Below the pieces are notes generated by a model, which had not been told where the DNA came from, searched no databases, and saw only the letters and a program-made list of their open reading frames with translations. Shown piece by piece: positions 13,426 to 63,336 of a DNA stretch of 64,000 bases. The first letter of the stretch is position 1. Each line of letters begins with the position of its first letter. The translations under genes were made by a program, and so were the position numbers. Source of the DNA: Limnothrix sp. FACHB-406 (GTDB lineage: Bacteria; Cyanobacteriota; Cyanobacteriia; CACIAM-69d); contig NZ_JACJSP010000005.1 in assembly GCF_014698235.1 (NCBI RefSeq), positions 186,001 through 250,000 on the forward strand. The letters run 5' to 3'.

Positions 13426-13877
13426 GCGGAAGCCAATCAGGTTGGATGGACGGGCTGATCGCTCCAGTGAGGTAGCTGGTCCGTTCGACTTGGAATCTGT
13501 CAAGCCCTAAAATGTAAAGAATTAAGAAAAACTTCTGATTTCCCGATCGATCCAGAATCGCGGATGGGTACGTTTGGGCTAAGTGCTTAGATCTTCCCTC
13601 AAGCCCTAGGCGATGCTCCGGTTTGGTTGCTCCCCTGAAGCGCGACACTTCAAGGCTGCAAGCCGATAATTTTTGGGCGGTTCAAGCACAGCCACCTGGC
13701 GTGGTTGGGATGGAACCGATTCGGAGCGCCGCCGGTCTAGGGACAGTGAGTCATGTTGGGGTAGCGAGAAACCGTTCTGAGATTGACGGTCACTCTCCAA
13801 CGCCCCGCCCTTTGCTGTAATGGGTGTGTTTCGGGTCAGTTTTTCAAGAACTCTCAGGCCAAGTTGGTAGAGCCAAT
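13426..13877. other. Leader region upstream of hpsA
   Basis: About 450 bases without a recognisable gene. A -10-like TAAAAT at about 13508 is the only promoter hint. No terminator with a clear T run was found for pepP, and I recognise no riboswitch. The in-frame GTG at 13824 is not preferred as the hpsA start. Confidence 0.4.
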
Positions 13878-16800
13878 ATGATGATCCTGCGGCGGCTAGT
13901 TTTGGCTATTTCGTTCCAATTGGGACGAACGATCGCGCAGTTCCAGCGACTGTTGCATCGTCGAGGGCGATCGGGCGATCGACCCCAAATCCTGGCTTCT
14001 AATCCCTATTGGCGACGGCTGCGATCGCAAGCGGGCTTCGTGTTGCCAACCACGGCCCTGTTGCTGGTGGTGGTGGCCCTTACGATTACTGCTCTCTCGT
14101 TGCGCACCCTCAACCGCACGGATCAAGTCGCAGCCGATCGGGCCCAAAAGGTGATCTACAACGCCGCCACCCCCGCAATCGATCGCGCCAGAGCGAAGCT
14201 TGAAAAGCTTTTTAGCGGAGAAGACCCAAGAATTACGACTAATGGCGTGCCCTCCGAAAAATACTTGCTCAGTATGTTGCTGAACAAAAACCTAACTGGC
14301 AGCAGCGCGTTTGATGCAGTTTTCAATCCTGCCCGGAATCAGTCTTACACCCTCCCTGACGAAACTCAGATTGATATGAATAGGGACGGAGAGCTAGATC
14401 CGGCCTGGCGGTTTCCCGTTGACACAAATGGTGATGGTGAGCAGGACGCTGATGTTGCCTACTCAATCGTTTTCAACTCGTTACCAGCCACTGCCAGCGG
14501 CGAGCTTGACACCGACATGAAGCGTGCTTCATTGCAAGCTCGTGTTGCAGCTTTGAGAACCCGCACAGGGCCCCTAATTCAACAAGAAGGGGCAGACAGC
14601 CCCTGCAATATCGCAGGCAAGCTGAATAAAATCAGTCCTGGCATCCTTCCTCCAATTGAAGCTGGCTGGTATCAAGACCAGAAGAAAACATCTACCCTCC
14701 GCAAGAACTTTCAGGTTGATGCAGTTGTGATTCCCCGAGCCAATACCGCTCGATCGGGAGGCGGAACAAACACCATTGCAACCCTTGAATTCCAGCAAGA
14801 CCGAATTGTAGAAAAGGGGAATAAATGGGGGGCATGGTTTCGTAACGACCTAGAGCTATTCTCTGGAGCACGCTTCAACTGGAATGGAGCTATGCACACT
14901 GAAGGATCTATGTTCTGGGCTGGAGCCAGTAACCCTACACGCTTGTTTTGGGTAAGCGCCCCTTCATCCTGCCTTTACCAAGACCCGGAAGCTTCCAGCA
15001 TTAGTGCCTCGCCAGCAAGCTCCTCAGGAAATTGCAAAAGCTATTCTGGTGAGGGAATTTGTAAAAATTTCCCAGGTGACCTGATTTCGAGTGCTGTGTC
15101 AGGGCCTCGCGGAAATTTTGCCGGCGATCCCAAATTATCAGTTGACTACAAGGCAACCAGTGGCTTGATCGTCCAAGGAAACAGCAACTTTACGACAGAA
15201 ACTGACTCGGTAAATTTCGGAGGCAAAGCAATTGACTTAGCCCTTGATCCGCTGCTCTTATACACTGAGGATGTTAGCGTTCGCCGAAAGTCTGTTAAAG
15301 CCCGTGCGGAAAACTGGCAAAAAGCTGAAGGAGCGGAGTACGCAGAAACACGGTTCAGCGGTCAATCCCTGCCTAAACCTTATTTGGATGATTTTTACCG
15401 GGCTGACAATCGTTACGGCCCTCGACCAACCTATGGCCGTTCCTCAGAGCTGAGGATGCCCGGCACTAAAAAGGTGGGTGACAATATTACTGCCGACGAA
15501 CGCTTAACCCGCAACACCAATACGGAACAACCGGCAGAAGTGGGAGCCGATGGCTACTGGGAGCGCCGCGCCATCAATGAGGGGACTCGAATCATTACCG
15601 GTCAGCGCCTAGAGCTGGAAAATCCCCTAGAAAATCCCCTGGGCTATCCCTCTCAAGCGGATGAATTTGATGCAACAACGCCGCTCCAGTCCTTACAGCG
15701 TCGTAGCTATAAAGATAATCCGGCCGCCGTCCAAGGCACGTTGCTTTTTCACAAAGGTGTTGGGCAAGGGGTAAAGCCGGTGGCTGCCCTGACGAGTACT
15801 GTTCACCCGGGGACTCCCGACACCCTGAAACAGTCGGCAACCTTTGAGAAACTTCCTATCGCGGCTGGTGTCAAGACCAAACCGGAATGGACAGCCTTTG
15901 GGGAGCGCTTTGGAGACGAATCAGAGGAACTTGCGATCGACTTTTTCCATGGCCGCGGCACGAACGGTTGGGAAATGGATGTGGATCGGCTCAATGAGCT
16001 AGTCAGTGTTAGCACTGGCCCCACCAGCACCCCGGTCAACTTAAACGCGACCTTGCGGAAAGCTTTGGAAAACCTGGCGACCTTTGCGGGGGACAAGGAT
16101 GGTGCATTTCCCGCCAAGCAGGAAGCAGGCAAAACTCACCCGCTCCCGCAGTTGGTGAAGTGGGGCGACTTTAGTAATTTGCGCCGGGCCCTCTATGACA
16201 CCAACAACAGTCCGGCTGATGCGACCACCCAGCAGACTGCGGCTCTGAGTACTGGAATGTTGGCTTACAACATTGCCTATTTGGATGCGATCGACTACAG
16301 CGATCCGGACTTCCAAACCACCGTTCTCGATAAGCTGGCGGAAGCCCTCGGCAAAATTGGGGACAACGATCCAGCCTGGAATAAAAAGGAAGACCCCTCC
16401 CGTGCGGATTGGCTCTCGGGAGCACGCACCGACAGCGCCAATGACCGCAAGTTGGGACGGGTTGACATTTTTCGCCCCGGAGACACCACGGGGCCCTTCT
16501 CTGTGCGGGTTTATCCAGGAAACTCCGGGCTGCGCAGTCCCTCTGACTTCAATAGCCGTAATCAGGAGGGTGCAGATTTTGTGGAAGTGCAGTTGGCTAG
16601 CCTCAAAACCCAGGGCGGTCAACCCCTGGCTAGTCCGCCCCTGCTGAAGCGGATTCCGGCTGCGGATCCGGCCCTGAAACCTGGTGAGAATCCGTTCGCG
16701 GCGACCACAGCTTCCACCGATGAAGTGACACCACTGGTTCCTCCGGAAGCCTATGTGGCGGCCTTGGCAGATAAGAGCACCAGCGGAGCGGCCCTCAACC

Positions 16801-19088
16801 GTTTGGACAGTAACCCCCTGAAGCCCACTGAGTTGCAACAATGGGCCAGGTTAATTGCACTCCGAGAGCAAATCCAGCGAGATCGCACCTTTGGCTTTGC
16901 CACCCACTTCGGCCGGGTCAAAAACACCGCTGGCAGCATCCCTGCGGAAACCGCCAAACATCACTACAGCTACACCGTCCAATATGACCTGACCCCCACA
17001 CCGCCCTCCGGATCATTAACCGTCGGCTATGCTTTTGGCGGCCGGGTGTATGAGCAAGCCAAAACCTATGAGTTTGGTTGTGATTTCAGCAAGACAACGG
17101 GAAATAACTACTTCGGCTACGGAGTTCCTGGAACGGTTGCGGAAGAGAAGCGGTTCTTGCACTTGGCAGGTACCCTCTGCCCCGTAGAACCCGAATATCC
17201 TGCGCTGTACTATCTGTTCCCGCGGCCTCTGTCTGAAGACTTCATCGCTCACGATGCGGATGGAGATAAAACGCTGATCCCCGACTTGGAAGTGGGCACT
17301 GCTACCCTGTCTGTGGAGGTAGATCATGCCCAACCTAGGGCTACGGATCCGTTCTATGCGCCTTACGACAAGCTGTATTTCGATCCCTATCTGACGGTTG
17401 CTCAGGGTAATTTCCAGGTGCTGAGTGATAAGGATCTGGAGTCAATCATGATCAAGCCTCGGAAATTGGCTGATTGGCTGCTACCTGTGGACGACAACCT
17501 CACGCCAACGGGTAGTTGTACCAATTCAGCTCCTAACTGCTCCCAGATGTTGTTTGTGGCAGTGGACAACGATGGGGCCAAAGCAGACAAGGCGATCGAG
17601 TATCACCGGGTTGCCTTCAAGGATGCAGCCTTGATGGACGGGCGAGAGCGTCTCGTAGAGCGGGTGCTGGATATCGATATCGATATGCTGCGGCAAAAAA
17701 CCTACGCTCCATCTGCCTTGGGAGATCTGTGGTTGACCTTTGGCAACCTGAAGAAGAACGAGGCAGGTGGCATCGTCTATGCATTCCGGGAGGACAATAC
17801 TCGGGAAGACGCGATCGAGCGATCGCCCTCTACCACCTGGTCGAGCTACAACATAGATACCGAAAGTGCTCGCATGAGCATCGGTCGCAGCAATCCCTTG
17901 GGGCAAGATCCGCCGATCAGCGATGTAACTGGCATTAGTCCTAAACCCGTGGACTACTATGCCGATCCCGATCGACGACCCCATGGGTTCCGATTGATCA
18001 ATGGTGCTTTGATTAAACGCGAAGGCGGTGGTGCTGACAATGCCAACATTTTTGGAATCTCCTTCATTACGGATAATCCTCTATTCGTGAAGGGTGACTT
18101 CAACTTGCACCGAGTGGGTGGAGTCTTGGCTGAAGAGTTCAACGCGCTTTTAAACCGGGACACTTACGGCAACTTCTATTCTCGAGGGAATCGTAGTCCT
18201 GGACAGGATCTGAACCAAGACTTTGCGAAACCTGACAAGGACACTTGGCGGCCAGTAGAGCTATTGGCTGACGCTATCACCCTACTGTCTGGCAACTACT
18301 GTGATGGCAGTATTCGCGATACCTTCCTTAGTGCTTCACCCAAACTCGCAGATTGGTATGGTTGCCAGCGGGTTGGCTCGCTTTCTTCGCCCACCACTTC
18401 GTTCTATGCCCAAAACCGTCCCCTAGAAATGTCTGATCAGGAACGGGATTTGGTGCTGGATTGGTGGCATGAAAACCGGTTTGATTTCACCAGTTCTGTG
18501 GCAGTGGATTACACTGGCAAGCCCCTACAGCGGATCAATGAAGACGCGGCCCGTCCGGAGTTTGGACGACCCGATCCCTACACCGGTAACTACCAAACAG
18601 TTCCCTTGGGCCAACGCTATGGTCGTGGTGCGAATGGTGTGTTACCCGGTGCGAGCACAACCGAAGCGAATGCCATCTTTATCAGCGGCATTGGCTCCAG
18701 CCGAGAAAACCAGAGCTATGGCGGTTTCCATAACTTCCTCCCCATGCTGGAAAACTGGGGAGGCAGTAGCTCCAGCCAGTCTCAAACCATTTCAGGAGCT
18801 TTCTTGCAGCTAAACTTCCGCACGTCCTCAACGGGCCCCTATGAGCACGATGCTTGGGAAATCAATCAGCGCCCAGTCGGCGGTCAGGATGATATTCCCT
18901 ACTACCAGACCCCAAGACGACTCTGGGGCTACGACGTGGGATTGCAATATGCTCCAGTGGGCCCCATTTCCAGTCGCTTCATAACGCCAGGTGAAGCTCG
19001 GAGCGAGTTCTACAACGAACCGGAAGCCGGTGATCCCTACATCTGTGCTTTACGACGTTCAATTGAGACCACCCCTGATGGTTGCTGA
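13878..19088 (+). CDS. hpsA: Hormogonium polysaccharide biosynthesis protein HpsA
   Basis: This 1736-residue protein has a basic N-terminal region, then a GF followed by a pilin-like hydrophobic helix (residues 53-76, FVLPTTALLLVVVALTITAL) and a very long extracellular part, which is the HpsA arrangement. The size fits the family. HpsA is needed, with the Hps pseudopilins, for secretion of the polysaccharide that supports gliding of hormogonia in filamentous cyanobacteria. Calcium-loop-like segments such as DMNRDGELD and DTNGDGEQD occur near residues 170-190. The start at ATG 13878 follows a weak GGTAGAG. hpsB and hpsC follow closely. Confidence 0.88.
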   Translation: MMILRRLVLAISFQLGRTIAQFQRLLHRRGRSGDRPQILASNPYWRRLRSQAGFVLPTTALLLVVVALTITALSLRTLNRTDQVAADRAQKVIYNAATPAIDRARAKLEKLFSGEDPRITTNGVPSEKYLLSMLLNKNLTGSSAFDAVFNPARNQSYTLPDETQIDMNRDGELDPAWRFPVDTNGDGEQDADVAYSIVFNSLPATASGELDTDMKRASLQARVAALRTRTGPLIQQEGADSPCNIAGKLNKISPGILPPIEAGWYQDQKKTSTLRKNFQVDAVVIPRANTARSGGGTNTIATLEFQQDRIVEKGNKWGAWFRNDLELFSGARFNWNGAMHTEGSMFWAGASNPTRLFWVSAPSSCLYQDPEASSISASPASSSGNCKSYSGEGICKNFPGDLISSAVSGPRGNFAGDPKLSVDYKATSGLIVQGNSNFTTETDSVNFGGKAIDLALDPLLLYTEDVSVRRKSVKARAENWQKAEGAEYAETRFSGQSLPKPYLDDFYRADNRYGPRPTYGRSSELRMPGTKKVGDNITADERLTRNTNTEQPAEVGADGYWERRAINEGTRIITGQRLELENPLENPLGYPSQADEFDATTPLQSLQRRSYKDNPAAVQGTLLFHKGVGQGVKPVAALTSTVHPGTPDTLKQSATFEKLPIAAGVKTKPEWTAFGERFGDESEELAIDFFHGRGTNGWEMDVDRLNELVSVSTGPTSTPVNLNATLRKALENLATFAGDKDGAFPAKQEAGKTHPLPQLVKWGDFSNLRRALYDTNNSPADATTQQTAALSTGMLAYNIAYLDAIDYSDPDFQTTVLDKLAEALGKIGDNDPAWNKKEDPSRADWLSGARTDSANDRKLGRVDIFRPGDTTGPFSVRVYPGNSGLRSPSDFNSRNQEGADFVEVQLASLKTQGGQPLASPPLLKRIPAADPALKPGENPFAATTASTDEVTPLVPPEAYVAALADKSTSGAALNRLDSNPLKPTELQQWARLIALREQIQRDRTFGFATHFGRVKNTAGSIPAETAKHHYSYTVQYDLTPTPPSGSLTVGYAFGGRVYEQAKTYEFGCDFSKTTGNNYFGYGVPGTVAEEKRFLHLAGTLCPVEPEYPALYYLFPRPLSEDFIAHDADGDKTLIPDLEVGTATLSVEVDHAQPRATDPFYAPYDKLYFDPYLTVAQGNFQVLSDKDLESIMIKPRKLADWLLPVDDNLTPTGSCTNSAPNCSQMLFVAVDNDGAKADKAIEYHRVAFKDAALMDGRERLVERVLDIDIDMLRQKTYAPSALGDLWLTFGNLKKNEAGGIVYAFREDNTREDAIERSPSTTWSSYNIDTESARMSIGRSNPLGQDPPISDVTGISPKPVDYYADPDRRPHGFRLINGALIKREGGGADNANIFGISFITDNPLFVKGDFNLHRVGGVLAEEFNALLNRDTYGNFYSRGNRSPGQDLNQDFAKPDKDTWRPVELLADAITLLSGNYCDGSIRDTFLSASPKLADWYGCQRVGSLSSPTTSFYAQNRPLEMSDQERDLVLDWWHENRFDFTSSVAVDYTGKPLQRINEDAARPEFGRPDPYTGNYQTVPLGQRYGRGANGVLPGASTTEANAIFISGIGSSRENQSYGGFHNFLPMLENWGGSSSSQSQTISGAFLQLNFRTSSTGPYEHDAWEINQRPVGGQDDIPYYQTPRRLWGYDVGLQYAPVGPISSRFITPGEARSEFYNEPEAGDPYICALRRSIETTPDGC

Positions 19089-19100
19089 TAATCTGTCCCG

Positions 19101-19895
19101 ATGAACTTGCGAGGCTTACCCGTCATGTCTAACGCCGCGTTCAATTACTGGGTTCGCCGCTGGCGCAGGCAGTCCCAAATCTCAGGCTCAGAATCTGGGC
19201 TGACGTTGCTGGAATGCATCGTGGCCTTGGTGATGATGTCTGTGGTGGCGGTGGCGATCACGCCTCCCCTATTTCTGGCAACAGCCTCGCGAGTCCAGAG
19301 CAACCGGGCAGAACAGGCCATTCAAGTAGCCCAGGGTGAAGTGGACAAAGTGCGCGTCACCATGGAGCGGGGAGATGTTCGTAGTGATTTGTCTCTCCTG
19401 CCCCAGGAAAGCAGTAACGGAGGCAATGAGTTTGAAAAAACGCCAGCACCTTCGGGGGTTCCCGATTTAAAAAATCTGGAGTCTACCCGGAATAGCTGTG
19501 ATAAAGGCGTGCCGTTCGTGGGCGCTTTGGAGTTGCGGCCAGTAGATGTGGACGGTGACTGCTTGCCCGATTTCGCGGTGCAGACATTTCGTAGCCCCGC
19601 ATCTGATCAAACTGCTATTCAAGGTGGTGTAGGTCTCATTCCTGTGGCTTTTCGGCTGGGGGTGCGGGTTTGGGCTTATCAGCCCATTCGGAGCGGAACT
19701 CAGCCCCTGGACATTAAAGCAGCTTCTCTGCAACTAACCAGTGGCACGGGTGAGCAGGGAATCAAGCCCTTGGCAGTGCTCTACACACAACTGGCCGTTT
19801 CGGACACCAAAGGTGCTTACGAAAAAATGTGCTATCTCCTCAACGGAGGGGCTGAAGACTGTAAGACGAAAACAAGTGGTGAAGAAACTCCATGA
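19101..19895 (+). CDS. hpsB: Hormogonium polysaccharide secretion pseudopilin HpsB
   Basis: The 264-residue protein has a long basic leader and a type III (prepilin) signal: Gly33|Leu34 with Glu at +5 in GLTLLECIVALVMM, followed by a hydrophobic helix. This is what prepilin peptidase PilD cleaves. The remaining globular part contains a calcium-like VDVDGDCLPD. It starts 12 bases after hpsA and overlaps hpsC by four bases, so the three form one operon. ATG 19125, preceded by GAGG, is an alternative start. Assignment as HpsB rests on the pseudopilin signature plus position directly after hpsA. Confidence 0.85.
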   Translation: MNLRGLPVMSNAAFNYWVRRWRRQSQISGSESGLTLLECIVALVMMSVVAVAITPPLFLATASRVQSNRAEQAIQVAQGEVDKVRVTMERGDVRSDLSLLPQESSNGGNEFEKTPAPSGVPDLKNLESTRNSCDKGVPFVGALELRPVDVDGDCLPDFAVQTFRSPASDQTAIQGGVGLIPVAFRLGVRVWAYQPIRSGTQPLDIKAASLQLTSGTGEQGIKPLAVLYTQLAVSDTKGAYEKMCYLLNGGAEDCKTKTSGEETP

Positions 19896-21064
19896 TTACC
19901 CTTCAACGAGTCCTCAAACGAGTTAAGCGCCGTTATCAAGCGATCCAACTGGCTTATGATCCTGGATTTGTGAGTAAACGCAAAGGCGCAATCCAAAACC
20001 GTCAGCTTGATTCAACCCAAACATCTGGATTTACGCTGATTGAATTGCTAATTTCAGCGTTGATTGCAGGGCTGATTATTTCAGGTTTGTTAGGAATTGT
20101 GGTGGAACTGGTTTCGACCAACCGCCGAGAGTTGGCACGATCAGAAACTATGCGTGATATGGGAATTGCTGCGGAGTTCATGAGTAATGAACTTCGGGAA
20201 GCGATTTATGTCTACACCGGTAAATGCCTATGGGAGGGGCAATCTTCTCCCGGAGAAACTGATTATTGTCCAGGTCTATTTGGTGGCGATGGAGGCTTGG
20301 AACCGCCTAAAGACAGCCTTCCGTTGATTGCTTTTTGGAAGCTGGAGCCACTTCCTGAGAGTTGCAATTCGGACAAATGTAGCGACTACAGCTTATCAGG
20401 TAGGACTTACACTCTGGTTGTTTACTTCTTAGATAAGGGTAATGAGGATAATAAGTGGGATGGTCGTGCTCGAATCTCGCGAGGTGTTCTCAAGCGGTTT
20501 AATGATGCTGGTAATGATCAAGATCCCTTCAATGATCCGTTAGATGTAAATTTGGGTTTGACGTTGCAAACTTGGCCGAAAACGGCTGAAGGTAATTGGC
20601 CTGATAGCAATAGACCGAAGCTTGATTCTAGGCAGATTCAGGCATTGGTGGATTTTGTAGACGATACGCGGGATCAAACGCTGAGTGCGGAACGAGAATG
20701 TCCGGTACAGTACCAGGTAACCCCAAGCTTGGCTTCATTGACGGGCGACTTTGAGGGCGTTCGTAGTGTCTATGCCTGCGTTTTGGATGAAACAGGCTCC
20801 GCTGAAAGCTTGCAGGAGCTGCAACAAAACAAAGGTAACCAAAACCAGAAGGTGATCCTGGCTGTTCGAGGTAACCCCGAGGGACGTTATGGTCTAGACC
20901 GGCGCAGTTGTTCTCAGGATGCGCCAGAGGCTGGAGAAACGAATCTGAGTACGGAGCTGGGGAAAGCAACTCAACAGACTACTTGTCGCTTGGCAGCAGT
21001 CAAAACGGAAGTTTTAAACCGAGGAACGGTGAACAAGGAGCCGCAAAACTTGGTAGACCCGTAG
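19892..21064 (+). CDS. hpsC: Hormogonium polysaccharide secretion pseudopilin HpsC
   Basis: This 390-residue protein has a 46-residue basic leader ending in Gly46|Phe47, with Glu at +5 in GFTLIELLISALIAG, the classic prepilin cleavage and helix sequence. The mature part is large for a pseudopilin and has several paired cysteines. The start codon overlaps the hpsB stop (ATGA), implying translational coupling. Hps pseudopilins are thought to form a type IV pilus-like or secretion-like device that exports polysaccharide. A G/C-rich hairpin follows the stop at 21072. Confidence 0.85.
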   Translation: MITLQRVLKRVKRRYQAIQLAYDPGFVSKRKGAIQNRQLDSTQTSGFTLIELLISALIAGLIISGLLGIVVELVSTNRRELARSETMRDMGIAAEFMSNELREAIYVYTGKCLWEGQSSPGETDYCPGLFGGDGGLEPPKDSLPLIAFWKLEPLPESCNSDKCSDYSLSGRTYTLVVYFLDKGNEDNKWDGRARISRGVLKRFNDAGNDQDPFNDPLDVNLGLTLQTWPKTAEGNWPDSNRPKLDSRQIQALVDFVDDTRDQTLSAERECPVQYQVTPSLASLTGDFEGVRSVYACVLDETGSAESLQELQQNKGNQNQKVILAVRGNPEGRYGLDRRSCSQDAPEAGETNLSTELGKATQQTTCRLAAVKTEVLNRGTVNKEPQNLVDP

Positions 21065-56086: not shown

Positions 56087-56866
56087 ATGGCCAATCTTGC
56101 GGATTCTCGATTAGGACGGTGGGCCCAGCGCGTGCAAGCGGCCGCCCTAATTGGTGGTCAAACCCTGGTTCACCTCAGCCGTGGCAAAATTCACCGCCGC
56201 AACACGATCGAACAAATGCACCTGGTGGGGCCCGACTCCTTGGGCATTGTGCTGCTGGCCGGCGTGTCGATCGGGGCGGTGTTTACGATCCAGGTGGCCC
56301 GCGAATTCATCAAATATGGAGCCACCTCCGCGATCGGGGGTGTGATGGCAGTGGCCATGGCGCGGGAACTGTCGCCGGTTTTTGCCGCCGTGATTTTGGC
56401 CGGGCGAGTGGGGTCGGCCTTTGCGGCGGAAATCGGCACGATGCGCGTGACGGAGCAAATTGATGCGCTTTATGTGTTGCGCACCGACCCGATCGACTAT
56501 TTAGTCGTGCCTCGGGTTTTGGCCTGTTGCACCATGCTGCCCCTGCTCACGGAATTGGGGTTGCTGGCGGCCATGCTGGCGGGACTGACCATTTCGGAAC
56601 TGGGCTTTGGCATCACCCGCTACGAGTTTCTCGACTCCGTGAAAACCTTTTTGGAAGTGCGGGATCTGTTTTGCGCTGCCATCAAAGGCGCTTGCTTCGG
56701 GGGGCTAATTGCCGCGATCGGCTGTGGTTGGGGTCTCACCACCAGCGGCGGGGCCAAGGGCGTGGGCCAAGCCACCACCTCCGCCGTGGTCACCTCTTTG
56801 CTGGCGATTTTGATTGCCAATTTCTTTTTGTCCTGGCTGATGTTCCGCAGTGCTCCCACGCTCTAG
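56087..56866 (+). CDS. mlaE: MlaE-family ABC lipid transporter permease
   Basis: The 259-residue membrane protein has the family motifs GIVLLAGVSIGAVFTIQVAREF, MARELSPVFAAVILAGRVGSAFAAEIGTMRVTEQIDAL and the C-terminal AIGCGWGLTTSGGAKGVGQATT. MlaE (TGD1 in chloroplasts) forms the membrane core of an ABC complex moving lipids between membranes. The ATPase and MCE-protein genes are not adjacent, which is usual in cyanobacteria. Start ATG 56087. Confidence 0.95.
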   Translation: MANLADSRLGRWAQRVQAAALIGGQTLVHLSRGKIHRRNTIEQMHLVGPDSLGIVLLAGVSIGAVFTIQVAREFIKYGATSAIGGVMAVAMARELSPVFAAVILAGRVGSAFAAEIGTMRVTEQIDALYVLRTDPIDYLVVPRVLACCTMLPLLTELGLLAAMLAGLTISELGFGITRYEFLDSVKTFLEVRDLFCAAIKGACFGGLIAAIGCGWGLTTSGGAKGVGQATTSAVVTSLLAILIANFFLSWLMFRSAPTL

Positions 56867-57067
56867 GCGTAATTGATCAGCGCGGTCGATCGGTGCAGTT
56901 GAATGGTCACCAGGTGCTGCGTCAAAAATCCCAATTTTCCTGAAATCTCTGGCGCGGGATGGGGCTTTTTCGATCGGGTCAGCTCGCCCCAAGAAATCTG
57001 TCACAATAGAAGGGATTTCTGGCGCAAAACAGCCGCCGTTTTTAACCCCCCAATTTCGTTCTTGATC

Positions 57068-57463
57068 ATGGCTTTTAAGATTCAAAAAACCGATGCCGAA
57101 TGGCAATCGCAACTGACTCCGGAACAGTTTCAAGTGACGCGCAAGCATGGCACGGAACGCGCGTTCACGGGAGAACATTGGGATAACAAGGCTCCCGGAA
57201 CCTACAACTGCGTTTGCTGTGGAACGCCCCTTTTTATTTCAGATACCAAATATGATTCGGGAACTGGCTGGCCCAGTTTTTGGCAGCCGATCGCCCCGGA
57301 AAATATTGAAACTCAGGTCGATCGCACCCTGTGGATGACCCGCACCGAAGTGCATTGCGCCAACTGTGGGGCCCACTTGGGCCATGTGTTTGAAGATGGC
57401 CCGCCGCCCACCGGTCTGCGCTATTGTATGAATTCTGCTTCCTTGAAATTTGAGCCAAATTAA
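57068..57463 (+). CDS. msrB: Peptide methionine-(R)-sulfoxide reductase MsrB
   Basis: The 131-residue enzyme has four zinc cysteines in two pairs (Cys48, Cys51, Cys97, Cys100), the conserved [20 protein letters not shown], and catalytic Cys120 in RYCMNSASL. It repairs methionine-R-sulfoxide in oxidised proteins using thioredoxin. Start ATG 57068; a longer frame from 56903 is leader. It converges with ftsH, with a terminator between. Confidence 0.97.
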
Positions 57464-57600
57464 GGGCCAGATTAAGGGCCAAATTGAGCTTGAATGGCGA
57501 TCGGTTGTTCTCAGTTGTGGTTGAGTGATCGCTGAGGTTTCGATCAAACCGTTTGATTGGGTTTTTGGGTCTTGTTTCTCGATCGCATTTTGAGCTAAGA

Positions 57601-57637
57601 AAAAATCCCCCGCAATCGATCGACTGTGGGGGATTTT
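57601..57637. terminator. Bidirectional terminator between msrB and ftsH
   Basis: AAAAATCCCCC (57601-57611) pairs with GGGGGATTTT (57628-57637) around a loop. T-runs occur on both strands, so it can stop msrB on the plus strand and ftsH on the minus strand. A second stem, GATCAAAC/GTTTGATT at about 57542-57558 followed by TTTTT, may assist for msrB. Confidence 0.85.
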
Positions 57638-57769
57638 GCTTGAAGATGAAAGCTTTGCTGAATTCAGGCCATGAAGTTTAACACTGATTCTGAACTTTGG
57701 GGGTGATTTCCAGGTCAATTTCCTGTGATCACCCCCCTTGAATTGCAGCGCTTCAGGGCAGGTTGCAAT

Positions 57770-59608
57770 CTAGGCGATCGCGGCCATTTTCACATCGCTT
57801 TCGTTCAGCAGGTCTTGCAATTCCTGGGCATCAACGGTCTCTTTTTCCACCAGCATTTGAGCCAGGCGATCGAGCACGGAGCGGTTTTCTTGCAGCACTT
57901 GCTTGGCGCGGCGGTAGGCTTGATCCACCAGGTTGCGGACTTCCTCATCGATCGCGGCGGCCGTCTCTTCCGAGAAGTCGCGCTCGGAGGCAATGTCGCG
58001 ACCCAGGAACATGTTGCCTTGCTGGCGACCCAGGGCCACCGGGCCCAGGCGATCGCTCATGCCAAAGCGGGTCACCATTTGGCGTGCCACACGGGTCACC
58101 TGCTGCAAGTCGTTGGAAGCGCCCGTGGTCACTTCCTCTTCACCGAAGATGATTTCTTCCGCCAGGCGACCGCCCAGGGCCACCGCCATTTGGTTTTCCA
58201 GATAGGAACGGGAATAGAGACCCGAATCCATCCGATCTTCGCTAGGCGCAAACCAGGTCAAACCGCCGGCCTGACCGCGCGGGATGATGCTGATTTTTTG
58301 CACGGGGTCGTAGTCGGGCATCAGCGCACCCACTAGGGCGTGGCCGGCTTCGTGGTAGGCCACCAGGGTTTTGCGCTTTTCGCTCATCACGCGATCTTTC
58401 TTTTCGGGGCCGGCCAAAATCCGGTCGATCGCGTCGTTGATTTCGTCCATCGAAATTTCCGTCAAGTTGCGACGGGCGGCCAAAATTGCCGCTTCGTTCA
58501 GCAAGTTTGACAGATCCGCACCGGTAAAGCCGGGGGTGCGGCGAGCAATCCGCTCCAGATCCATATCCTTCGAGAGGGACTTGCCGCGCGCGTGGACACC
58601 CAGAATTTCCAGGCGGCCGTTGAAGTCGGGGCGATCGACCACCACTTGGCGATCGAACCGGCCGGGACGCATCAGCGCCGCATCCAACACGTCGGGGCGG
58701 TTGGTGGCCGCAATCACAATAATCCCCGTGTTGCCCTCAAAGCCGTCCATTTCGGTCAGCAATTGGTTCAGGGTTTGTTCGCGCTCGTCGTTGCCGCCGC
58801 CGAGACCTGCGCCCCGCTGACGACCCACCGCGTCGATTTCATCGATGAACACAATGCAAGGGGCGTTTTGCTTGGCCTGCTCAAACAGGTCGCGCACGCG
58901 GGACGCACCCACACCCACGAACATTTCCACAAATTCCGAACCGGAGATGCTGAAGAAGGGCACACCCGCTTCGCCAGCCACAGCCCGCGCCAGCAGGGTT
59001 TTACCGGTTCCCGGAGGGCCCACCAGCAGCACGCCCTTGGGAATCTTTGCACCCACGGCGGTGAAGCGATCGGCATTTTTCAGGAAGTCCACCACTTCCG
59101 TCAGCTCCAACTTGGCTTGCTCAATGCCGGCCACGTCGTTGAAGGTGATTTGGGTTTGGGGTTCCATTTGCACCCGGGCCCGCGATTTGCCAAAGTTCAT
59201 GGCCGGGTTGCCCGCGCCCCCTTGGGCCCGCCGCAACAGGAAGAACAAACCCACCAACAGCAGAATCGGCAGGAACAGGCTGCTCAGGGCCCGGAACCAG
59301 AAGCCTTCGTCGCTGGGCGGTTGCACGGAAATATCAACGTTGTTGCTGGTCAGAATGTTGATGATTTCCGGGTCGTTGGGCAGGTTCACCAACACGGTGC
59401 TGCCGTCTTCGGTGGTGGCCAAGGCCCGGGAGCGATCGGCGCTAATCCGCACGCGATCAACCTTTTTAGATTGCACTTCCTGCACGAATTGGCTGTAGCG
59501 CCAGGTTTCGCGGGTTTGGGGCTGTCGATCGAAGAACGCTGTACCCAGGGCGATGATTACGATCGCCAACAGGGCATAGAGTCCGGCATTTCTCCACCGT
59601 TTATTCAC
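57770..59608 (-). CDS. ftsH: ATP-dependent zinc metalloprotease FtsH
   Basis: The 612-residue membrane protease has a cytoplasmic start, a first helix (10-25), a lumen-side domain, a second helix (about 110-128), an AAA+ domain with Walker A GPPGTGKT (197-204), and the zinc protease motif HEAGH (419-423). FtsH hexamers extract and degrade membrane proteins; in cyanobacteria this includes damaged PsbA. The start is GTG 59608, nine bases after AGGAGG. Which of the several cyanobacterial FtsH paralogs this is cannot be decided here. Confidence 0.96.
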
Positions 59609-59898
59609 TGGTGCATCCTCCTAAAAGGCGTTCTGCCAGGGCGTTTGTTATGCCAGGGCTGTACTTGCCGTAGCTCAAAAATTAACTGGTTGTTAACTAA
59701 TGTTAACGCAATGGCTTCCAGTCCGTCGCCATGGCTGCTATTAACGATTATGCGGATTTCCGACTCAGGATGGGTGTGGACGAAATCGCTTGGTGGGTGT
59801 AACAGCGCGATCGCCCCGCAGACTAAGGGTTATGCGGTCGTCGCCGCCAGTCGGTCTAGCCGGTCTAGCCGTCAGTGGGTTGAAGTGTTTGGGGAGAA

Positions 59899-60858
59899 AT
59901 GAAGGAAATGCAGGCATTTGGCGGCCCGAGGGCCACAGAATTTCCGATGCCGCTGGAGCCGGGCGATCGGGCGTGGGTGATTGCCCCCAGCGGGCCAGTT
60001 TTGGATCCGGCGGCGATCGCCCGGGGGGTGGAAATTTGGCAAGACCGGGGCTTTCGGGTGCAGTTTGCGGCCGGTTGGGATGCGCAAACGGGCTTTTTGG
60101 CGGGCACTGATGCCCAACGTCGATCGCAACTGGCGGCGGCCTTGGCGGATCCCGGTTGCCGAGCGATCGTCTGTGCGCGGGGGGGCTATGGTTCGGCCCG
60201 ACTGCTGGAGGATTGGGATTGGCCGCTGTTTGCCGGTCGAGGGGCGGGGCTGATGGTGGATCCAGCGCGATCGCCCCTGTGGTTGATTGGGTTTTCAGAC
60301 ATTACGGCCCTGCTGTGGAGTTTGGCCCGGCAGGGGGTGGCGGGTGTGCATGGGCCCCTGCTCACCACCTTGGGCCAGGAACCGGCCTGGACGGTCGATC
60401 GCCTGTTTAATCTATTGGCCGGTCAGCCCCTGGAACCGCTTCAGGGTCAGGGTTGGGGCGGTGGGGCCGTGGTGGGTCGCCTGTTTCCGGGGAACCTGAC
60501 GGTGATTGCCAATTTGCTCAATACGCCTTTGCAGCCCGCTTTGGAAGGGGCCATTTTGGCGATCGAGGACGTGACGGAATATCCCTACCGGATCGATCGG
60601 CTGTTGACCCAGTGGCGTTTGAGCGGTCTGTTGCGGGCGATTGGGGGCATTGCGATCGGCCATTTCACCGCCTGCGATCCGCCGCCCAACCGGCCCAGTT
60701 GCTCCATGGCGGAAGTGCTGCGCGATCGGCTGGGAGATTTGGGCCTGCCGATCGTTTCCGGGTTGCCCTTTGGCCATGAACCCCCGAATGCGGCCTTGCC
60801 CGTGGGCACGCTGGCCCGGTTGGATGGGGAGGCGGGCACGCTGGAACTCTTGAGCTAG
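59899..60858 (+). CDS. LD-carboxypeptidase (S66 family)
   Basis: The 319-residue serine peptidase has GDRAWVIAPSGP near the front, CARGGYGSARLLEDWDW, the nucleophile-containing GFSDIT, a catalytic Glu in AILAIEDVTEYPY, and a C-terminal GHEPPNAALPVG with the triad His. It cleaves the D-Ala from muropeptide tetrapeptides in recycling. ATG 59899 or ATG 59911 or ATG 59947 could be the start; homologs begin near the last. It is divergent from ftsH. Confidence 0.88.
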   Translation: MKEMQAFGGPRATEFPMPLEPGDRAWVIAPSGPVLDPAAIARGVEIWQDRGFRVQFAAGWDAQTGFLAGTDAQRRSQLAAALADPGCRAIVCARGGYGSARLLEDWDWPLFAGRGAGLMVDPARSPLWLIGFSDITALLWSLARQGVAGVHGPLLTTLGQEPAWTVDRLFNLLAGQPLEPLQGQGWGGGAVVGRLFPGNLTVIANLLNTPLQPALEGAILAIEDVTEYPYRIDRLLTQWRLSGLLRAIGGIAIGHFTACDPPPNRPSCSMAEVLRDRLGDLGLPIVSGLPFGHEPPNAALPVGTLARLDGEAGTLELLS

Positions 60859-61014: not shown

Positions 61015-63336
61015 CTAGCGATCGTCGCCCCGCAAGGCCAAGGGCGATCGGGGTAACTCAAAGGTTTTCAGCAGCAATTGCCCCGTCGCTTCCCCATCGA
61101 TCGGGCGGGAAAACCAATAGCCCTGACCATAGGAACAGTCCATCGATTGCAACTGCCGCAACTGCTCGATCGTCTCAATCCCTTCCGCCACCGTATCCAT
61201 CCCCAGGGATTCCGCCAGGGCAATAATTGCCCGGACAATGGCCCAATTGCTTTCCTGGTCTGGACTGCGGGTGACAAAGGAGCGATCGATCTTGATGGTA
61301 TCGATCGGGAAGCGTTGCAAATAGCTGAGGGATGAATAGCCCGTGCCAAAGTCATCAATGCTCAGTTGAATGCCCCGATCGCGCAGTTTCCGCAACAGGG
61401 CCTCCGCCGTTTTGGCATCCGCCATCACCACGCTTTCGGTAATTTCCAACTTCAGGTGCTGCGGCGGCAGTCCCGTTTCCGCCACAATTCCTTCAATGGA
61501 CTGGGCCAAGTTGGGCTGGGTAAACTGCCGCGCCGACAGGTTCACACTCACACTTAGCCCGGCCCACCCATGGGCCGATCGCAGGCTGGGAATGGCCTGT
61601 AACCAAACCATCATTTGCTGGCAAGCTTCCCGCAAAATCCATTCGCCCAGGGGAATAATCGTGCCGGTTTCTTCCGCCATGGGAATAAATTCCGCCGGAC
61701 TCACCAACCCCCGATCGGGATGATGCCAACGCACTAGGGCTTCCAAGCTGGCAACCCGGCCCGTAGCCAAATCCACGATCGGTTGATAAGTCAGGAAAAA
61801 TTCTTGCCGCTCCATGGCCCGGCGCAAATCGCGCTCCAGGTGCAGTTGCGCAATCACCCGCTCGCGGAAGGAGCGATCGAACGCCGCGTAGCAGTTGCGG
61901 CCCAACTCCTTCGCCCGATACATGGCCAAATCTGCATCCCGCAGCACATCCCCCGGCCGGGCATATTCCGGCGTGCCGAACGCAATGCCAATGCTGGTGG
62001 TGATGGTGAATTCGTGGCCATCCACATCAAAGGGAGCTTTCAGGGCCAACTGCACCCGCTCGGCGGCGCGGGTGGCAATTTCCGGCTGATCCAAATCCGT
62101 CAGCAAAATGGCAAATTCATCGCCCCCCAGCCGCGCCACCGTATCCTGGGGCCGCACGCAGGTGCGCAACCGGTTCGCCAGTTCCACCAAGAGCCGATCG
62201 CCACAGAGGTGACCCAAGCTATCGTTCACCACCTTGAAGCGATCGAGATCTAAAAACAGCACCGCAAAATGGTGATTGCGTTGGCGACGGGCGATCGCCA
62301 TGGTTTGACCCAACCGATCGATAAACAGGGCCCGATTCGGCAGCCCCGTCAGCGCATCATGGAGCGCGTCATGCAGCAACCGCGACTCCACCAACTTGCG
62401 CTCATGGATATCCGCCAAGGATCCCGCCATCCGCAACACATGGCCCCGCCCATCCCGAATCGCCAACCCCCGACAGAGCACCCAGCGCACGGAACCATCC
62501 GCATGGCGAATGCGATGCTCACTTTCAAAGTGGTCACTGCGGCCCTGCAAGTGGGCATCTAGCTCCGCTCGCAATTGGGCTTGATCATCCACATAAACCC
62601 GATCGAGCCATTCCTGGGGTTGGTCACCCACTTCCGAATCGCGGTAGCCCAACAACGCCTTCCATCGGGGCGAAAAATAAACCCGATTGGTCAAAAAATC
62701 CCAATCCCACAGCCCGTCATTGGCCCCCCGCACAGCCAACGCGTACCGCGCCTCACTTTCCCGCAAAGCCGACACCAATTGGGATTGTCCCAAGGCCACC
62801 CCCGCCTGCACCGCAATTTGTTGCAACAAGTCCTGCTCGAAGGGTTGCCACTGGCGCGGCCCCTGGCAATGGTGAGCCAACAGCAGTCCCCACAATCGGT
62901 TTTGAGAGCGGTCTGGCTCAATCACCGGCTGCAAAATTGGTACGACCAAATTGGCCTGCACACCGAACTGGCGCAGCAGTTGGCGATGGCAAACCGAAAT
63001 CCGAGCGGTTTCCACATCGTCAATGGCCGAGGTGCGCCCTTCAAGATATTTCTGGTGATAGTGGGTCGTGAAGCAGGGGTCGGAAACGGTTTTGCCCAAC
63101 AGGGAATAGGGGCCATTGCCGGTAGCCTCCACCACAAAGGAGCCTTGCCGCTGTGCATCGAATTGGTAAACCAAGACCCGATCGCACTGCAACATCCGCT
63201 GCACTTCCGTGACCATGGTTTGCAGGATCGTATCCACCCGTGATGACTGGTGAATTTTGAGGGCGATTTCTGCGAACAGTTTCGATCGCCAGTATTGACG
63301 CTGTAGCTCGACTTCCGCCTCCATTCGATCGATCAC
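61015..63336 (-). CDS. DXCF cyanobacteriochrome-like GAF - PAS - GGDEF - EAL protein
   Basis: The 773-residue protein has GAF (about 20-185), PAS with PAC (195-315), GGDEF (about 325-480) and EAL (about 500-755). In the GAF, Asp86-Pro-Cys88-Phe89 and Cys116-His117 lie 28 residues apart, the spacing of the DXCF and canonical chromophore cysteines. GGDEF (404-408) is intact with an RxxD product site, RPQD at 395-398, and EAL has Glu532-Ala-Leu in LEALVRW plus DDFGTGYSSL. So it can both make and break cyclic-di-GMP, and the GAF may sense light. No partner gene is adjacent. Confidence 0.93.
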   Translation of the reverse strand: MIDRMEAEVELQRQYWRSKLFAEIALKIHQSSRVDTILQTMVTEVQRMLQCDRVLVYQFDAQRQGSFVVEATGNGPYSLLGKTVSDPCFTTHYHQKYLEGRTSAIDDVETARISVCHRQLLRQFGVQANLVVPILQPVIEPDRSQNRLWGLLLAHHCQGPRQWQPFEQDLLQQIAVQAGVALGQSQLVSALRESEARYALAVRGANDGLWDWDFLTNRVYFSPRWKALLGYRDSEVGDQPQEWLDRVYVDDQAQLRAELDAHLQGRSDHFESEHRIRHADGSVRWVLCRGLAIRDGRGHVLRMAGSLADIHERKLVESRLLHDALHDALTGLPNRALFIDRLGQTMAIARRQRNHHFAVLFLDLDRFKVVNDSLGHLCGDRLLVELANRLRTCVRPQDTVARLGGDEFAILLTDLDQPEIATRAAERVQLALKAPFDVDGHEFTITTSIGIAFGTPEYARPGDVLRDADLAMYRAKELGRNCYAAFDRSFRERVIAQLHLERDLRRAMERQEFFLTYQPIVDLATGRVASLEALVRWHHPDRGLVSPAEFIPMAEETGTIIPLGEWILREACQQMMVWLQAIPSLRSAHGWAGLSVSVNLSARQFTQPNLAQSIEGIVAETGLPPQHLKLEITESVVMADAKTAEALLRKLRDRGIQLSIDDFGTGYSSLSYLQRFPIDTIKIDRSFVTRSPDQESNWAIVRAIIALAESLGMDTVAEGIETIEQLRQLQSMDCSYGQGYWFSRPIDGEATGQLLLKTFELPRSPLALRGDDR

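Follow-up and report, generated by a model that had tools for sequence, protein, structure and literature searches.

We have analyzed a window of 64,000 nucleotides from the cyanobacterium Limnothrix sp. FACHB-406 (contig NZ_JACJSP010000005.1, positions 186,001 to 250,000) and, within it, a gene that probably codes for a light-sensing enzyme of cyclic diguanylate (cyclic-di-GMP) metabolism. By its open frame and by Pfam the gene is whole, lies at 61015..63336 on the minus strand and codes for a protein of 773 amino acids with the order GAF-PAS-GGDEF-EAL. It is read from a GTG start codon at 63336 down to 61015, the alternative start being Met5. An in-frame TAG one codon ahead of the GTG closes the frame, and a protein extended upstream was therefore rejected. 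The GAF domain covers residues 34-182 (62791..63237, Pfam E 8.4e-22) and is followed by a PAS domain at residues 219-305 (62422..62682, PAS_3, E 5.2e-22), a GGDEF domain at residues 324-481 (61894..62367, E 5.6e-50) and an EAL domain at residues 502-745 (61102..61833, E 1.4e-80), all on the minus strand and all exceeding the curated cut-offs. Membership of the protein (P0001) in the Tlr1612 family was discarded, its score of 571 bits falling short of the cut-off, 1600. A scan for promoter and terminator at the gene gave nothing above chance, and a full-length structure model was unusable (predicted local distance difference test, pLDDT, of 47).

The initial annotation had described a DPCF motif at residues 86-89 with Cys116-His117 28 residues later, the same cysteine spacing in TePixJ, and intact GGDEF, RxxD and EAL motifs. 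All of these motifs are present, and the spacing is also true of the TePixJ sequence 3vv4. The DPCF (63070..63081, minus strand) contains Cys88, the predicted second and labile ligand (at C10 of the bilin), which aligns with TePixJ Cys494, while Cys116-His117 (62986..62991, minus strand), the predicted stable attachment of the bilin, aligns with Cys522-His523. GAF matches were found at 29 places of the host genome at E 0.001 or better, falling in 17 open frames (assigned from match positions and frame lengths, with L148 and L157 read without 45 and 175 residues). Seven of these 17 frames carry DXCF with a cysteine exactly 28 residues on (the window gene, L002, L142, L144, L145, L146 and L147), and two more DXCF strings (L146, L155) have no cysteine at that distance. 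The other six frames with the pair resemble histidine kinases (five by Pfam, L002 by eye), and the window protein alone among the seven is joined to GGDEF and EAL. The kinase of L142 (1281-3551, minus strand, G000:C16), with 757 amino acids, has an ethylene-receptor N-terminus (ETR1_N) ahead of its DXCF GAF, together with an ATPase domain of the kinase type; it resembles UirS/SynEtr1, the ultraviolet and ethylene sensor of Synechocystis. Across the phylum, 28 GAF relatives were fetched and aligned from 95 matches listed (up to 16 candidates scored per genome). DXCF and the canonical cysteine appear in 28/28, at a spacing of exactly 28 in 27 of them and of 29 in G194. One relative fetched afterwards (G180, L117) lacks both DXCF and CH and resembles RcaE, which counts against a uniform pairing. 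The motif is retained in an orthologue sharing 66% GAF identity. The DXCF/Cys pairing of the window GAF is beyond chance.

The assignment of this domain as a DXCF-type cyanobacteriochrome GAF is backed by Pfam, PDB matches, alignment, tree and motifs. The top PDB sequence matches of the protein were the dual-sensor kinase 6oap, RcaE, miRFP670nano and TePixJ. A structure model built for the GAF with three closely related sequences is weak, at a pLDDT of 65, and its twelve best fold matches in PDB were the 6oap-type dual-sensor kinase and miRFPnano derivatives of cyanobacteriochromes. The excerpted text of PMC6955287 names Asp492, Cys494, His498, Trp499, Cys522, His523, Gln526 and Asn535 as pocket residues of TePixJ. 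In our mapping on the alignment, Asp492, Cys494, His498, Cys522, His523 and Asn535 are kept as Asp86, Cys88, His92, Cys116, His117 and Asn129. A 33-GAF tree puts the window protein and two orthologues together with RcaE and four relatives that have DXCF (support 96/97); a larger tree of 62 GAF rows resolved little near the window protein past its own orthologues. The ratio of non-synonymous to synonymous substitution rates (dN/dS) of the GAF was 0.08 against G001 and 0.10 against G002, where dS comes close to saturation at 2.6; the motif is conserved, and the domain is under purifying selection. Besides, the genome has two heme oxygenase matches and one match for a ferredoxin-dependent bilin reductase, presumably PcyA.

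We consider it probable, from domains and residues, that the protein is a soluble one-component photoreceptor, a light-switched cyclic-di-GMP enzyme of the kind of SesC. The latter makes cyclic-di-GMP under blue light and degrades it under green, according to extracts of PMC5871770 and PMC9090330 and to the table of PMC8846402. In the Limnothrix protein, the GAF would bind phycocyanobilin through Cys116 (the residue and its family are observed) and would probably isomerise it to phycoviolobilin. The dark state would have a second bond, from Cys88 to C10 of the bilin, and would absorb blue. Blue light would flip the 15,16 double bond and break the Cys88 bond, leaving a green- or teal-absorbing state that green or teal light, or darkness, would reverse. 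This change may travel through a helical linker and the PAS, reach the GGDEF and EAL domains and, as in SesC, tip them towards synthesis or breakdown of cyclic-di-GMP; on that analogy, blue would favour the former and green or teal the latter.

The colour of the photoproduct may depend on two phenylalanines, Phe67 at the trapped-twist position of strand beta-2 (63136..63138, minus strand) and Phe124 at that of helix 4 (62965..62967, minus strand). Both are found in G001 and G002 as well and align with the Phe residues of the red/green NpR6012g4, AnPixJg2 and Slr1393g3, whereas TePixJ, SesA and SesC, reported as blue/green (among others in the excerpted table of PMC8846402), have Val and Leu there in the alignment. 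Being unlike these three references, the pair makes blue/teal about as likely as blue/green, and we take a green and a teal photoproduct of this GAF to be about equally likely. The specific proposal that Phe67 and Phe124 hold the D-ring twisted after isomerisation, moving the photoproduct to teal, has in our view a little under an even chance. SesB speaks against it, since that protein is blue/teal in the same table with Met and Tyr at these positions in the alignment, and the trapped-twist colour rule is thus incomplete. The equivalent of Phe67 is also missing from the aligned phylum relatives (0/28), the sole other DXCF rows that have it being L008 (with both Phe) and L007 (with the first Phe) of the same genome.

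Regarding the output, the product-inhibition site RPQD (RxxD; residues 395-398, 62143..62154) is separated by five residues from the GGDEF motif (residues 404-408, 62113..62127), and the DLDRF metal-site region is intact. The EAL motif (residues 532-534, 61735..61743; like the others on the minus strand) is followed by Asn599, Glu631, Asp661-Asp662, Lys682, Glu718 and Gln738, which we take to be EAL active-site residues. Judged from its motifs, the protein would be able both to make and to break down cyclic-di-GMP. Another possibility, which we find on balance doubtful, is that light acts but one enzyme works, the GGDEF domain being a regulator that senses guanosine triphosphate (GTP) and the protein in effect a light-switched phosphodiesterase. 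This arrangement is common for GGDEF-EAL pairs. SesB would be the model, its phosphodiesterase activity being increased by teal light and GTP in the excerpted literature. However, GGDEF, the metal-site region and RxxD are all intact here, and SesC is described in the excerpted reports as bifunctional even though the two SesC genes read in this work show SGDEF.

A gene 99% identical to the window gene is present in CACIAM 69d, a Limnothrix metagenome assembly, and the Oscillatoriales assembly PH2015_14S has one that is 80% identical. Among six genomes of the family searched, the whole gene was present in three of the window's genus, and the two of a second genus gave no whole-gene match. In a third genus, G005 (L030 259-3489, plus strand) has the orthologous output module (tree support 98/99) with SGDEF for GGDEF, and its GAF is without either bilin cysteine, so that it looks like a naturally occurring, blind counterpart of the window protein. 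A search of 146 sampled genomes (up to 7 candidates scored per genome) gave 38 matches that reached 1e-148. Of these, 7/38 spanned from GAF to EAL (start at residue 10 or before, end at 748 or beyond), namely the window gene, its G001 orthologue, G043, the SesC of G085 and three without DXCF (G000 C6, its G001 counterpart C96, and G058). This suggests that the GAF-PAS-GGDEF-EAL architecture is uncommon but not unique. Outside its own family, and among the matches listed, the closest to the output end by identity have FHA (L139), HAMP and PAS (L160), CHASE2 (L161) or PAS (L162) where the window protein has its GAF; the nearest by tree path, in a mostly unresolved tree, is G058 (L166), with a GAF without DXCF. 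At the sensor end, the 13 phylum relatives fetched besides SesA were, by eye, 12 kinases (11 with DXCF) and one GGDEF protein. Direct orthology with SesC was sought at both ends. Neither end groups with SesC in the trees, though such a grouping is not rejected at either end (p value of the approximately unbiased test, p-AU, 0.134 and 0.149). Since the GAF groups with kinase GAFs and RcaE and the relatives of the output carry other sensors, the fusion may be a separate one, and the pattern suggests that it was assembled apart from that of SesC. A fuller version appears unlikely to us as a whole: a separate analogue of SesC, in which a DXCF GAF of the kinase or RcaE kind was set before PAS-GGDEF-EAL in the Limnothrix line and gained Phe67, would form a blue/teal bifunctional switch acting via ComFB/CdgR in a genome without PilZ proteins.

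We find it improbable that phycocyanobilin stays unisomerised in the GAF, with a switch from blue to orange or yellow. Some DXCF proteins do bind phycocyanobilin at least in part, and RcaE, within the same tree group, is a green/red phycocyanobilin binder. The residues of the window GAF point the other way. An extract of PMC11284453 ties phycoviolobilin formation to positions Cys1015, Val1018 and Ile1076, which by our own count and alignment correspond to Val84, Pro87 and Leu153. TePixJ has Ile, Pro and Ile at these places, and phycocyanobilin binders have Trp, Thr and Ala. The three A-ring residues are close to the former and unlike the latter, which favours phycoviolobilin as the likely chromophore.

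That the GAF binds no bilin any more and is a structural or ligand-sensing domain is highly improbable: the orthologue of G005 indicates that the enzyme family tolerates the loss of both cysteines, but at 66% GAF identity both motifs and pocket are retained, and dN/dS is low. The initial annotation had named a GAF placed among non-chromophore GAFs as one outcome that would refute it. We joined the window GAF to five GAFs without canonical Cys (three of them chosen by eye) and this grouping was rejected with a p-AU of 0.0074, in a tree with four long branches that all fall within those five rows. On this test, long branches included, and on motif conservation we discarded a chromophore-free GAF. 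The long branches are nevertheless one of several points that weigh against a light-switched enzyme of the SesC kind as we propose it. In the pocket, Trp499 and Gln526 of TePixJ are replaced by Tyr93 and Leu120 in the alignment, and Phe67 and Phe124 speak against a photoproduct that is simply green. In proteins with both GGDEF and EAL, often just one of the activities works. The enzyme of G005 persists behind its cysteine-less GAF, which argues that the output module can do without light. Finally, the GAF end and the output end have different nearest relatives, neither of them grouping with SesC.

The host assembly (4.50 Mb, scored 100% complete) has 21 Pfam GGDEF matches, so that the window enzyme is one among many. 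No Pfam PilZ match was found in the genome at E 0.001, and ComFB gave two matches (G000:C9:47388-47630 and G000:C10:90669-90908), one within a frame of 877 amino acids. Excerpts of PMC12313861 describe ComFB/CdgR as binding cyclic-di-GMP as well as cyclic-di-AMP in cyanobacteria, and those of PMC5871770 describe aggregation in Thermosynechococcus as dependent on a cellulose synthase through its PilZ domain. Downstream of the enzyme, the route is therefore probably another one than in Thermosynechococcus. The signal would probably act through receptors of the ComFB/CdgR type, proposed here because PilZ gave no match, on pili, surface behaviour or cell size. A role in motility or aggregation is suggested by analogy with Thermosynechococcus. 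The initial annotation also spoke of hps genes: hpsA (13824-21064, plus strand) is above its NCBIfam cut-off, and the hpsB and hpsC matches that follow are recognisable but weaker and below theirs. Some 4 kb upstream there is another PAS-GGDEF-EAL gene (G000 C5:253419-255071, minus strand; L026 9243-11150), which G001 has as well. Downstream of the window gene (56087-60858) there are a carboxypeptidase-like gene and ftsH. Over 6 kb downstream, the Limnothrix locus with 99% identity (L022 8320-14319) showed neither of the two, nor did L023 (8317-14295), where msrB is nearby. Of these two loci only L022 keeps the upstream hydrolase gene. The differences may be due either to rearrangement or to assembly joins. 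A literature search found nothing on Limnothrix with cyanobacteriochromes or cyclic-di-GMP.

As the sole cyclic-di-GMP enzyme among the seven DXCF GAF proteins of the genome, the candidate offers a clean single-gene test of the control of cyclic-di-GMP by light, in a filamentous, hps-bearing cyanobacterium where PilZ gave no match. Within the dual-cysteine group, the Phe pair would let the trapped-twist colour rule be tested directly. We see the predicted colour, the lack of a PilZ route and a fusion that may be a separate one as testable refinements of a known kind, not as surprises.

Among the known systems, RcaE (8k9o, 7ckv) shares 44% GAF identity and a supported tree group with the window protein but is without the DXCF cysteine and has Cys-Leu in place of Cys-His. 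The DXCF GAF histidine kinases (G064, G162, G070 and others) have the closest GAFs among the matches listed, with up to 54% identity and both motifs, but a kinase output. The TePixJ GAF (3vv4, 4glq, 6pru) has DPCF and CH 28 apart and the equivalents of its Asp492, His498 and Asn535 (named in the excerpt cited above) in the window protein. However, identity is 35%, Val/Leu stand for Phe/Phe, Leu120 and Tyr93 take the places of Gln526 and Trp499, and TePixJ is deposited as a chemotaxis protein, not as a cyclic-di-GMP enzyme. SesB (Tlr1999) also joins a DXCF GAF to GGDEF-EAL, but by eye no PAS is seen between GAF and GGDEF, Met/Tyr occupy the trapped-twist places, and the excerpts of PMC5871770 and PMC8846402 give it as a phosphodiesterase only. 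SesC (Tlr0911) was read in G174 and G085, which we take to be Thermosynechococcus because gene order and spacing fit the locus tags of sesA, sesC and cikA in the excerpted PMC9090330. Its end, a GAF with DPCF and CH followed by PAS-GGDEF-EAL, is collinear with the window protein, and the SesC of G174 matches residues 4-746 at 37% identity. SesC differs by its extra PAS domains in front, its SGDEF for GGDEF and its Val/Leu at the trapped-twist places, and in the trees the window protein does not group with it at either end, though that grouping is not rejected. The window protein is a credible further member of the SesC-type sensors, a kind already studied in the laboratory.
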